From: an uncultured Bacteroidota bacterium
Lineage (GTDB): Bacteria > Bacteroidota > Bacteroidia > AKYH767-A > JABDAW01
Direction: 5' to 3'
Length of the DNA: 35,740 nucleotides
NCBI GenBank assembly: GCA_903844645.1
Contig: CAIMUP010000122.1
Coordinates: 1-35,740, forward strand
Part shown: piece after piece, positions 7,155 through 31,843 of the stretch
Layout of the letters: each line of letters opens with the position of its first letter
Position numbering within the stretch: position 1 is the first letter of the stretch
Made by a program: the position numbers and the translations under genes
Notes under the pieces: model-generated
Seen by the model: the letters and a program-made list of their open reading frames with translations, nothing else
What the model was told of the DNA's origin: nothing
Databases searched by the model: none

Positions 7155-7494
7155 CATTTTGAGAAAAGTTCCGGTTTTACGTCTGAAAACCTCCTTTTTA
7201 CGTCTAAAAATGTTCACCGGAGCAATTCGCGTTACGCCCTTTGCTAAGGTCGTTACGCCCTTTGCTATTGTCGTTACGCCCTTTGCTATTGTCGTAACCA
7301 CCTTTGCTATTGTCGTAACCACCTTAGCTATTGTCGTAACCACCTTAGCTATTGTCGTAACCACCTTAGCTATTGTCGTAACCACCTTAGCTATTGTCGT
7401 AACCACCTTAGCAAAGGTCGTAACCACCTTAGCAAAGGTCGTAACCACCTTAGCAAAGGTCATAACGACCGTTGCTAAGGGCAATAAAAATGAA
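7155..7494. repeat. 21-bp tandem array A
   Basis: Thirteen consecutive 21-base units run from 7222 to 7494 without a single slip in register. The commonest unit begins gctattgtcgtaaccacc. Units at the left carry gttacgccc, and those at the right replace gctatt with gcaaag. To the left, two units of another type (tttacgtct at 7176 and 7197) keep the same 21-base spacing. Because 21 is a multiple of 3, long open frames appear on both strands; I do not take these as coding. The array fills the gap between the DUF433 promoter and the terminator at 7525. Confidence 0.95.
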
Positions 7495-11325: not shown

Positions 11326-11352
11326 GGTAAACGATGGACTTCTTGGGGTATG

Positions 11353-11457
11353 TTTTCGGAGACCCCCGTTAAGTTTTCGGAGACCCCCGTTAAGTTTTCG
11401 GGGACCCCCGTTAAGTTGTCGGGGACTCCCGTTAAGTTTTCGGGGACTCCCGTTTAA
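11353..11457. repeat. 21-bp tandem array B
   Basis: Five contiguous 21-base units begin ttttcggagacccccgtt. Changes between units are point substitutions only (gag/ggg, ccc/tcc, one tttt/ttgt). The array sits directly upstream of the promoter at 11318. Confidence 0.95.
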
Positions 11458-13380: not shown

Positions 13381-14445
13381 TTATTCCTTCACCACCTTCC
13401 TTATCACTCTTTCCTTTTCATTACTTATTTCTACGAGATAGATTCCCTTTGCGAGGGTCTCGATGTTTAAGGAAGTGCTGCCGGTGAAGGGTTGATGCAG
13501 CAGCTTGCGACCGGTAATATCATAAAGAATAACCTCCGATGGACTTTGATTATTCGTGGTGATGGTTACTGCATGGGTGGCGGGATTGGGGAAGATGGAG
13601 GGGGTGGGAGGTGGAGTGGATTCAGTGATTCCAGTAATAGAACAATCAGGAACTGGTGGAGATGCTTGTGCAAGTGTATAAAGTCGTACATCATCCAAAA
13701 CCAATTCTGTACAGTGTGAACAAATATGTCCCCAGTTGGTGAATTTAATAGTATGTGAGGTTGAGGTGGCTTTAAACTCAACTATATATCTTTTACCAAT
13801 GCTATCATAGATAAATGATGAAGTTGAATTGTTTCTTAAAAGGGTATCTCCAAATCCAACATCTACCGCAAATAATCCTTTAATAGGGTAATTACCTCCA
13901 CCTTCTCCACCAGCCCAAAATTCTAAAACATAAATATTACCTATTATTAATCCGGTAACAGTTTGCTTTAGACTTATTCCAATTGTTCCTCCATAACCAG
14001 AATCTCTACTATGAGGATAACCAGAATTAATACCAGTTATAGAACAATCTACATTATTTAAACAAGATGTATCACCAAATATTGAAGAACAAGAGTTAGC
14101 ATAATAATTCCCAAAATATGCTGCTCTGGTTCCTTCGATAATATTTGAATAATTACTATCATAAATACAAGCATAGGTTTGACTGCCACCTCCAGTGCAT
14201 ATCCAATTAGCAATATCACATGAATGTCCAATTGAATTTGGGCAAAAAGAAGTATGAGAACTTGTGCTTCCATGATTGGGAATACAATTACTATTCTCAA
14301 ACCCTCCATTCAAAATAAGATTATTCCCACCATGCATTATTGAATCATTCTGATCGTAGCAATAGATGCAGAGCACTTGCGAGTGCAGCGTGAAGAACGA
14401 AGAGTGAAGAATGAGGAGGACGAGGATTAGTTTTAGATTTTTCAT
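13381..14445 (-). CDS. T9SS-sorted protein with galactose-binding-like N-terminal domain
   Basis: I use the ATG at 14445 (354 residues) because it begins a clear signal peptide (MKNLKLILVLLILHSSFFTLHSQ); the in-frame ATG at 14505 lies upstream of the promoter box. Residues ~40-250 start with LILNGGFENSNC and include ANWICTGGG, GTRAAYFGNYY, FWAGGEGGG and LVLDDVRLYTL. This layout (NGGFE, a W/Y-rich beta sandwich, a closing DDV) resembles DUF642/CBM-like galactose-binding folds. The last ~75 residues are a T9SS type A domain (IFPNPATHAVTI, VILYDITGRKLL, LAKGIYLVEI). It is probably a surface carbohydrate-binding protein; the ligand is unknown. Confidence 0.82.
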   Translation of the reverse strand: MKNLKLILVLLILHSSFFTLHSQVLCIYCYDQNDSIMHGGNNLILNGGFENSNCIPNHGSTSSHTSFCPNSIGHSCDIANWICTGGGSQTYACIYDSNYSNIIEGTRAAYFGNYYANSCSSIFGDTSCLNNVDCSITGINSGYPHSRDSGYGGTIGISLKQTVTGLIIGNIYVLEFWAGGEGGGNYPIKGLFAVDVGFGDTLLRNNSTSSFIYDSIGKRYIVEFKATSTSHTIKFTNWGHICSHCTELVLDDVRLYTLAQASPPVPDCSITGITESTPPPTPSIFPNPATHAVTITTNNQSPSEVILYDITGRKLLHQPFTGSTSLNIETLAKGIYLVEISNEKERVIRKVVKE

Positions 14446-14468
14446 GTTGCTATATATATAATGAGTGG

Positions 14469-14476
14469 CAAAATTA
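14469..14476 (-). promoter_or_regulatory. Promoter -7 box of the 13381 gene
   Basis: The minus strand reads TAATTTTG, about 25 bases before the start. The sequence around it (14462-14478) is identical to 7112-7128. Confidence 0.6.
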
Positions 14477-14521
14477 GGGAAAAGTTTGGGAATATCGCAA
14501 ATCATCCTACCTGAAGCCTCA

Positions 14522-14728
14522 AAAATCCGTACGGATTCTCTGAAGTTCCGTACGGATTACGGGAATTTCCGTACGGATTCTCTGAAGTTCCGTATAGGTC
14601 AGGGAAAATTCCGTAAGGATTCTCTGAAGTTCCGTATGGGTCAGGGAAAATTCCGTAAGGATTCTCTGGCGTTCCGTAAGGAAATTCCCGTAATCCGTAC
14701 GGAACTTCAGAGAATCCGTACGGATTTT
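14522..14728. repeat. 21-bp tandem array C with a 49-bp inverted repeat
   Basis: About ten 21-base units alternate between two types, gaagttccgtacgg-like and aaaattccgtaagg-like, with attctct or gtcaggg ends. The first 49 bases (14522-14570) and the last 49 (14680-14728) are perfect reverse complements, so the array could fold into one long hairpin with a 109-base loop. ccgtacgg is itself palindromic. The array lies between the divergent promoters of the genes at 13381 (-) and 14870 (+). Confidence 0.95.
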
Positions 14729-20435: not shown

Positions 20436-20613
20436 TTCCACCGTATGCTCACGAGCTTCCACCGTTAGCTCAAGGTCTTCCACTGTTAGCTCACGGTCTC
20501 TCACTGTTAGCTCACGGTCTTCCACCGTTAGCTCAAGGTCTCTCACTGTTAGCTCACGGTCTTCCACCGTTAGCTCAAGGTCTTCCACCGTTAGCTCAAG
20601 GTCTTCCACTGTT
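20436..20613. repeat. 21-bp tandem array D
   Basis: About 8.5 units of 21 bases start ttccaccgttagctcaag. The variants are ttcc/tctc, accg/actg and aagg/acgg, reused in different combinations. The array begins 25 bp after the proS stop. Confidence 0.95.
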
Positions 20614-20617
20614 CGGT

Positions 20618-20707
20618 GAAATGAAATCGCGCACTCGCGAAATGAAATCGCGCGCTCGCGAAATGAAATCGCGAGCTCGTGAAATGAAATCGCGAGGTTG
20701 GGAAATG
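20618..20707. repeat. 21-bp tandem array E (different unit)
   Basis: Four and a partial fifth unit of 21 bases begin gaaatgaaatcgcg and end in variable cactcgc, cgctcgc, agctcgt or aggttgg. It adjoins array D but shares no sequence with it, only the period. The units are GC-palindromic in part (tcgcga, gagctc). Confidence 0.93.
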
Positions 20708-24053: not shown

Positions 24054-24142
24054 ATTATGGGTCATTGACCAATGGCGTTGACTTTTTGCATTTCAGCGAT
24101 GTGGTTTATACCACGACTCCTTAATTTCACCATGTTTAACGA

Positions 24143-24472
24143 GGGTCTGTCATGTTCCTTCGAGGGTCTGTCATGTTCCTTGAAGGGTCTGTCATGTTCC
24201 TTCGAGGGTCTGTCATGTTCCTTCGAGGGTCTGTCATGTTCCTTGAAGGGTCTGTCATGTTCCTTGAAGGGTCTGTCATGTTCCTTGAAGGGTCTGTCAT
24301 GTTCCTTCGAGGGTCTGTCATGTTCCTTGAAGGGTCTGTCATGTTCATTGAAGGGTCTGTCATGTTCCTTCGAGGGTCTGTCACACTCCTTCAAAGGTCT
24401 GTCATACTCCTTCGAGGGTCTGTCATTGACCTTCGAGGGTCTGTCACACTCCTTCGAGGGTCTGTCATTGAA
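24143..24472. repeat. 21-bp tandem array F
   Basis: Nearly 16 units of 21 bases begin gggtctgtcatgttcctt. Two main versions end in cga or gaa and are mixed along the array. The last five units replace atgttc with acactc, atactc or attgac, so the right end is most diverged. The frame stays open in several readings, including one giving GLSCSFE-type heptapeptides, which I attribute to the 21-base period. The array lies between pdhB and the 3' end of the tRNA-Thr gene. Confidence 0.95.
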
Positions 24473-24683
24473 TGATGTAATCTTTATATACAATAGCACA
24501 GTCGCTATATCCGACAGCGAAGTTTATATATTGAATAACCCACGAAATCCGGCGGCTACGGATTTATTTCTATGAGATAAGAAGCGACAAGGGAAGCACG
24601 AGAGGGAAGTTCATCAAAGAATAGTTTAAGGTTTAAAATCTAAGGTTGTGCACGAACCTTAAACCTTAAACCATAAACTTTTC
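24473..24683. other. Intergenic DNA with an imperfect inverted repeat
   Basis: At 24632-24672, aaggtttaaaatctaaggtt faces aaccttaaaccttaaacc around gtgcacg. This could end the tRNA transcript on the minus strand, but there is no T-run. Nothing else was recognised. Confidence 0.35.
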
Positions 24684-24780: not shown

Positions 24781-24866
24781 TAAAACTGGAAATAAAAAGA
24801 AAGATTGGTTGGGGTGAAATGATGTATTTTGTATTTTGTAGTTTTGAACCGTCTAAAATTATTGTT

Positions 24867-27560: not shown

Positions 27561-27690
27561 GGAGTTTTTTCAATACGAATCTTTTAAAATTCTGGTAGCA
27601 TATCAGTTTAAAAAGAAACTATTAGACTTAATATCCATAGGAAGCTATGTAATTCCCTTCGGCAAAAGAAAGTATCATTTCGGTAAAACC

Positions 27691-27984
27691 TATTTGCGTT
27701 TGAGCCAAACCTATTTGAGTTTGCTCCAAATGTATTTGAGTTTACGCCAAATGTATTTGAGTTTGCGCCAAACCTATTTGTGTTTGAGCCAAACCTATTT
27801 GAGTTTGCTCCAAATGTATTTGAGTTTACGCCAAATGTATTTGAGTTTGCGCCAAACCTATTTGTGTTTGCTCCAAACCTATTTGTGTTTGCGCCAAATG
27901 TATTTGAGTTTGCTCCAGACCTATTTGTGTTTGAGCCAAACCTATTTGTGTTTGAGCCAAACACATTCGTATTTGAGCCAATAG
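27691..27984. repeat. 21-bp tandem array G
   Basis: Fourteen contiguous units of 21 bases begin tatttgagtttgcgccaa. Variants at three positions (gag/gtg, gcg/ctc/acg/gag, atg/acc) mix along the array. Units 2-4 are repeated exactly as units 6-8 and unit 9 differs little from unit 5, so an 84-bp block was duplicated. atttg and caaat give each unit a weak dyad. It fills the gap between gpsA and the phosphate operon. Confidence 0.95.
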
Positions 27985-30648: not shown

Positions 30649-30739
30649 CGGTTAAAACTTCAATACCGCAAGAGAAATCTCACTATTCCAAACATTTAAC
30701 TAAAATCCTATTGTTAAATGCCCAAAATCTCTTTTTGGA

Positions 30740-30897
30740 GGAACTAACTCGTTTCTGTCAGGAACTAACTCGTTTCTGTCAGGAACTAACTCGTTTCTGT
30801 CAGGAACTAACTCGTTTCTGTCAGGGACTAACTCGTTTCTGTCAGGAACTAACTCGTTTCTGTCAGGGACTAACTCGTTTCTGTCAGGAACTAACTC
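30740..30897. repeat. 21-bp tandem array H
   Basis: About 7.5 units of 21 bases begin ggaactaactcgtttctg. Only gga/ggg varies, so this is the most homogeneous array and probably the youngest. It lies in the divergent gap between the genes at 29908 (-) and 31029 (+). Confidence 0.95.
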
Positions 30898-31028: not shown

Positions 31029-31715
31029 ATGAAGAGAATTTATAGCCTGAAATTGGGAATCATACTGGGTATCGTTTTATCCTTTGGGATGGTTCATGGA
31101 GCAGTAACTTTCACTACCGTTTGTTTTGGTGTAAGCAATTGTTTTACTCATGATGGTTCTATTTTAATAACCGCAACTGGCGGAACGACTCCTTATATGT
31201 ATTCAATAAATTGTGGGCTGACTTGGCAAAGCTCTTATTCTTTTAATGGATTACATGCCGGAGCTTATGAAATAGAAGTGAAGGATGCTTTAAACGATTC
31301 GTCGGTTTGTGTGGCGATAACAGTAGGGTATAATGACCCTATCATTTATACCACCAGCATCACCAATGTTACTTGCAATACATGTAGTGATGGAAGGGTC
31401 ATCGTTATGGCAAGTGGAGGTGGTGGAGGTGGTTATTTATATTCTAAGAATTGTGGAATAACATTTGGAACACCAAGTACCTTTAATAATTTAACATCCG
31501 GTTGGTTTCATATACAGGTTAAAAATGGATATGATTGCATTACGAATTGCGATTCGGTTTATGTTGGAAGTCCTGCTGGTATGAATGAAATAAATACTGA
31601 TGCAGAGATGAAGGTTTATCCCAACCCGGCAACTACTACCATAACCATCCATTCTCAACTATCCATTCTCAACTCTCAACTCTCAACTCTCAACTCATCA
31701 TCACCGATGTATTAG
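31029..31715 (+). CDS. SprB-repeat surface protein, sorting domain out of frame
   Basis: The 228-residue reading frame has a signal peptide (LKLGIILGIVLSFGMVHGA) and two SprB-type repeats of ~75-80 residues. One starts at TFTTVCFGVSNCFTHDGSIL, the other at TSITNVTCNTCSDGRVIV, each followed by GG..P(Y)-like and G.Y/F.I.VK. A T9SS sorting domain begins (MKVYPNPATTTITIHSQ), but after the heptanucleotide repeat at 31668-31695 the frame ends in SSSPMY-stop. The missing domain lies in another frame at 31697-31840. As read, the protein would be exported to the periplasm but could not use T9SS. A change of repeat number would restore it. Confidence 0.8.
   Translation: MKRIYSLKLGIILGIVLSFGMVHGAVTFTTVCFGVSNCFTHDGSILITATGGTTPYMYSINCGLTWQSSYSFNGLHAGAYEIEVKDALNDSSVCVAITVGYNDPIIYTTSITNVTCNTCSDGRVIVMASGGGGGGYLYSKNCGITFGTPSTFNNLTSGWFHIQVKNGYDCITNCDSVYVGSPAGMNEINTDAEMKVYPNPATTTITIHSQLSILNSQLSTLNSSSPMY
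31668..31695 (+). repeat. (CTCAACT)4 heptanucleotide repeat within the sorting domain
   Basis: Four perfect tandem copies of ctcaact are preceded by one more copy at 31654-31660, separated by atccatt. Because 7 leaves remainder 1 on division by 3, each gain or loss shifts the frame. Five or two copies join the upstream frame to the sorting-domain frame at 31697; four or three do not. Confidence 0.92.
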
Positions 31716-31840
31716 GGAATAAGATTTATCAACAAACAATTACGAATGCCACCCAATCAACCATTGACATCAGCAAATGGAGCGAGGGGGTATATTTTTA
31801 TGAAGTGAATGGAATAAGAGGGAAGTTTGTGAAGCTATAA
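31697..31840 (+). pseudogene. Out-of-frame remainder of the 31029 T9SS sorting domain
   Basis: In the frame starting at atc 31697 the sequence reads IITDVLGNKIYQQ, ISKWSEGVYFYEVNG and ends GKFVKL-stop at 31840. These are the usual second half of a T9SS type A domain. No start codon belongs to it. It has no internal stop, which suggests recent or reversible loss of frame rather than decay. Confidence 0.85.
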
Positions 31841-31843
31841 AAC

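Follow-up and report, generated by a model that had tools for sequence, protein, structure and literature searches.

Does the heptanucleotide repeat that interrupts the T9SS sorting domain of a SprB-repeat protein mark a switch that can be thrown back, or a gene that is being lost? The question arises at one locus of the window, i.e. the whole 35,740-nt stretch analyzed here, which corresponds to contig 122 of a draft genome (G000; 3.84 Mb, 143 contigs, 98.7% complete). This genome encodes the T9SS, including complete PorU (NF033707, 1267 bits) and SprA (TIGR04189, 2599 bits), and at least 150 type A C-terminal sorting domains (CTDs; the best 150 of 354 candidates scored). The original prediction held that the protein encoded from 31029 loses its T9SS tail at (CTCAACT)4, a repeat of non-triplet length within a surface gene. 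The gene structure bears this out, as the array is exact, marks the frame break, and separates two CTD halves lying in different frames. The features of the locus are:

31029 to 31715, plus strand: open reading frame of 228 aa with a putative signal peptide, SprB repeats, and the beginning of the type A CTD; it terminates at a stop out of the CTD frame
31137 to 31217, plus strand: best SprB-repeat match (PF13573, residues 37-63, E=1.8e-9, two stretches)
31614 to 31700, plus strand: beginning of the CTD (VYPNP...), read in the same frame as the gene and matching PF18962 positions 1-28 and positions 1-24 of a genome-specific CTD model
31648 to 31667, plus strand: degenerate heptamers of the same family, 5' of the perfect array (TCCATTC TCAACTA TCCATT)
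31668 to 31695, plus strand: (CTCAACT)4, the perfect heptanucleotide array and site of the frame break (exact sequence)
31697 to 31841, plus strand: rest of the CTD (IITDVLGNKIYQQ...GVYFYEVNGIRGKFVKL, stop), intact in the reading frame shifted by two bases

The putative signal peptide, as read from the sequence, is MKRIYSLKLGIILGIVLSFGMVHGA. At the other end of the protein, the CTD is not continuous in one frame, since the reading frame closes at 31715 and the tail lies two bases off. Taken alone, the N-terminal part of the CTD scores below the curated cut-off of PF18962. The remainder, which reads IITDVLGNKIYQQTITNATQSTIDISKWSEGVYFYEVNGIRGKFVKL in the second frame and is closed by a stop codon at 31839-31841, matches TIGR04183 over model positions 13-70 with 32 bits, above the cut-off of 23. 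Each part fits the family model, and the two overlap within the (CTCAACT)4 array. By its C-terminal domain (TIGR04183/PF18962) the protein is a T9SS type A cargo, albeit one whose sorting domain is split over two frames. The tail contains no stop or further lesion and shows no decay. It had been predicted to be intact from 31697 to 31840, which stands except that the end is 31841 when the stop is counted. Similarly, four perfect units are present as predicted, but the array as a whole is longer and more degenerate than that, with 6.3 copies assigned by TRF over 31653-31696 when the degenerate units are included.

Frame arithmetic gives 2, 5, and 8 as the copy numbers that join the two halves, in agreement with the predicted rejoining by five or two copies, and 1, 3, 4, 6, and 7 as those that do not. 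A chance origin of the array was rejected, as only ~8e-8 perfect 7-periodic runs of such length are expected in a genome of 3.84 Mb; the gene therefore contains a non-triplet tandem repeat beyond chance, as contingency loci do. All three forward frames of CTCAACT repeats are open and encode the identical cyclic peptide LNSQLST, so that a slip leaves the local peptide the same and alters only what lies downstream. The reverse strand contains a stop in each frame. A search of the three closest genomes (G001-G003) yielded no orthologue of the window gene, only paralogues with at best 38-41% identity.

The proposal to look for this heptamer at the corresponding site of other T9SS genes in the genome proved fruitful, with arrays of its family in the same CTD loop found in at least six other genes. 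A perfect three-copy CTCAACT array is unique to the window within the genome, and a search of 40 relatives found no perfect array there, but a degenerate family, TCMAYTN, has seven zero-mismatch loci in the genome, five of which lie in CTDs (C1:82295, C19:12510, C54:10693, C58:43579, and the window). CTDs make up ~1.5% of the sampled bases, giving a nominal P of 1.5e-8 for five of seven loci, a value that makes the enrichment look stronger than it is, as CTD paralogues are not independent. When mismatches were permitted, further arrays of this family were found in the CTDs at C58:60853, C27:34054, and C138:52778. The array at C54:10693 is antisense and located in a different CTD loop. The six sense arrays besides that of the window (C1:82295, C19:12510, C58:43579, C58:60853, C27:34054, and C138:52778) all follow the first beta strand of the CTD and are all in frame. 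Five of them leave the loop as long as in array-free CTDs (roughly xSQLSxLNSQLxI), and the loop at C58:43579 is three residues longer than the standard form. By our own count, the window gene exceeds this standard form by 14 nt, or about two heptamers. Compared to codon-shuffled controls, period 7 and its double, 14, were the only clearly enriched short periods in 140 CTDs.

A second broken CTD is found in another species of the same genus (G002). In a gene on its contig C27, the same CTD loop contains an array of another heptamer, (GAATTAC)3, at which the reading frame ends, and the remaining CTD is intact and two bases out of frame. The downstream neighbor of this gene is a paralogue whose CTD is in frame and which shares 88% identity over 254 bp. 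We surveyed 810 kb of G000 (49 full CTDs) and 384 kb of G002 (21), i.e. 70 CTDs in 1.19 Mb, for frame breaks, and the window gene and the G002 gene were the only clean cases. Further split CTDs were not found in this 1.19 Mb, where the other partial matches consisted of orphan remnants, ends of stretches, or hits to unrelated models. The window itself contains one such orphan (24558-24618, plus strand), the C-terminal end of a CTD with no gene in front of it and beside a 21-bp array, a remnant of a lost cargo gene. The most perfect arrays in this loop are those of the two broken CTDs, and the in-frame arrays are more degenerate, the pattern expected from slippage at perfect repeats. With two out-of-frame cases among about a dozen array-bearing CTDs, stability is nevertheless the norm. 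The frame arithmetic, the intact tail, and the case in the congener together indicate that a change in copy number would toggle the frame and leave the remaining gene intact, again as in a contingency locus. This second case in a related species, along with the in-frame repeats at the same site, suggests a recurrent and possibly reversible frame switch.

Heptamers are over-represented among the short periods in this genus, occur in many different unit sequences, and are dispersed and mostly non-coding, as in the heptameric repeat class of Nostoc, Xanthomonas, and Beggiatoaceae. Eight arrays of period 7 were found in the G000 sample and 24 in the G002 sample, compared to at most two for any other period between 4 and 13; period 14, the double of 7, gave 4 and 10 arrays, respectively. 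Non-coding arrays make up most of both samples, with 10 of 14 in G000 and 27 of 32 in G002. Most of the coding arrays are located in signal peptides or CTD loops, and one more lies at window position 24823, close to a doubtful start. Long arrays in the signal peptides of large reading frames occur in G000 (C1:68381-68413, L330:8381-8413, 4-5 copies) and G002 (C2:25526-25599, L357:5526-5599, about ten copies), and for on/off phase variation of the classic kind these two are the better-placed candidates. Another signal-peptide array is located within a CTD-bearing gene (G000:C6:441). In the window, a degenerate heptamer array is also present on the minus strand at 14381-14418, in frame within the signal peptide of the T9SS-cargo gene at 13381-14505 (LILHSSFFTLHSQ). 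Orthologous proteins of 990 and 1032 aa in G000 and G002 share an array-bearing signal peptide but differ in the heptamer it contains, which implies turnover, with new arrays arising at sites of this kind. The TCMAYTN family is nearly absent from G001, the third genome of the genus. Many heptamer arrays form closely spaced inverted pairs capable of hairpin formation (L083:1577-1651 on G002:C35; G002:C8:19-86, C33:5106-5209, C38, C59, C60, C81, C110, C121, and C185; G000:C129:7131-7198).

The window also contains longer-period tandem arrays at 7238-7454, 11352-11454, 14526-14682, 20436-20613, 20618-20707, 24140-24468, 27686-27962, and 30739-30897. These eight arrays are mostly intergenic, with units of 21 bp (or 42, 63, or 84) and sequences unrelated between arrays. 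A period of 21 or a multiple thereof characterizes 212 of the 259 tandem arrays in 810 kb of G000, about one per 3.8 kb, and the congener shows a similar picture. A length of 21 bp corresponds to two turns of DNA. Our literature search found no paper on arrays of this period.

Outside the genus, at least 119 stretches in the genome collection contain the exact sequence (CTCAACT)3, the matches listed including Bacteroidales, Fibrimonadales, Verrucomicrobia, Planctomycetes, and a cyanobacterium, among others. Three to four copies are found in frame within the single-copy housekeeping proteins CarA, GlpK, PyrC, PheT, Dcp, and TrpF of unrelated bacteria (stretches L266, L239, L251, L241, L260, and L240), three and four exact copies being the usual lengths. 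The heptamer is a widespread dispersed repeat that is tolerated as an in-frame insert, and its presence by itself thus implies no selected switch. Among the matches listed, none of the arrays of other organisms lay in a CTD that the genome-specific CTD model could recognize, and the concentration in CTDs is therefore known only from this genus.

Tandem 7-bp units at surface-protein genes are known from Haemophilus influenzae hmw1A and hmw2A, mostly as promoter tracts of 13-38 units, and in strain PittAA, (AATTTTG)14 lies inside the hmw1A reading frame with a frameshift that fits slippage (PMC2651432). The window gene resembles these loci in having non-triplet tandem heptamers at a surface-protein gene, within the reading frame as in PittAA. 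Unlike the promoter tracts, its array lies near the 3' end and affects only the secretion and anchoring signal; its four perfect units exceed the threshold of three used in that study and fall far short of known switching heptamer tracts. The heptameric repeats of Nostoc and Xanthomonas, in which four units are a favored length (PMC4692102), and the tandem TAACTGA repeats of Beggiatoaceae, cyanobacteria, and some Bacteroidetes (PMC4679880) are likewise dispersed and mostly intergenic, as are the heptamers of this genus. Those classes are rare or under-represented in coding DNA and have not been described in secretion signals, unlike the coding arrays found here, and the unit CTCAACT matches none of the published ones (GGGAATC, GGGGAYT, and TAACTGA). 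In the literature searched, which left most subscription journals uncovered, no paper was found on repeats in, or phase variation of, T9SS sorting domains.

Several explanations of the split gene have to be weighed. Being in the -1/+2 frame, the tail could formally be reached if the two frames were joined during translation or transcription, by programmed -1 frameshifting or slippage, which would make a switch in the DNA unnecessary. On inspection, the array contains neither an X XXY YYZ slippery site nor a homopolymer; we rejected programmed frameshifting on the absence of the slippery site and consider a joining of this kind extremely improbable. It is also very unlikely, if less so, that the copy number is an assembly or consensus error and that the real gene is in frame. 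A draft genome of 143 contigs leaves room for such errors, and a mixed population can collapse to a single copy number, but the 28 perfect bases are far below the usual short-read length, the array is free of homopolymers, and the congener shows a similar break. The original prediction that the gene is off holds for the assembled consensus, and no further.

One-way decay has appreciably more in its favor, although we still regard it as a minority possibility. It assumes that arrays are often born and are tolerated where sequence hardly matters, such as signal peptide cores and CTD loops, making the window gene a young pseudogene for secretion instead of a selected switch. The abundance of mostly non-coding heptamer arrays in both genomes, their turnover in orthologous signal peptides, the in-frame CTCAACT arrays in housekeeping proteins, and the orphan CTD remnants are all consistent with this view. 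It accounts less well for a CTD tail without a stop or added lesion, for two independent hits on the same CTD loop, and for the concentration of coding arrays in targeting signals. A lone past expansion followed by loss would, however, look identical.

We therefore consider it probable, on the evidence of sequence, that slippage of a coding heptamer array shifted the frame of a CTD that was functional until recently, a change that would be reversible in principle and makes the array a candidate switch of protein location. The window gene encodes a T9SS cargo, an SprB-repeat surface protein, and the loop that joins the first two beta strands of its CTD contains a heptamer array presumably prone to slippage. 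Slipped-strand mispairing or unequal recombination may have added about two units (14 nt) to this loop relative to the standard in-frame paralogues, and as the array is about two units too long, the product stops soon after it, without the greater part of the sorting signal. The truncated product would still cross the inner membrane through its signal peptide (Sec) but would be expected to escape T9SS recognition, and thus to be neither exported nor anchored, with retention in the periplasm as the predicted outcome. As the same processes could restore the frame, the array is a candidate C-terminal phase switch that would act on location and not on expression.

That a selected phase switch is maintained at this array is plausible. 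Recurrence at targeting signals, the intact tails, and the two independent cases point toward selection, and the short tract, the mostly in-frame CTD arrays, and the plain explanation by tolerance point away from it. More tentatively, and with considerable doubt, the coding arrays in both targeting signals of this genus's exported proteins (signal peptide cores and CTD loops) might form a set of contingency loci, in which a slip in the signal peptide would turn the protein off and a slip in the CTD would spare the protein but change its destination, between retention in the periplasm and export with anchoring. If the array does switch, it would represent phase variation in the destination of a surface protein, not in its synthesis, and a T9SS repertoire of at least 150 cargoes could be diversified cell by cell. 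Even without switching, the coding heptamer arrays of this genus gather in secretion signals and are a recurrent source of frame breaks.
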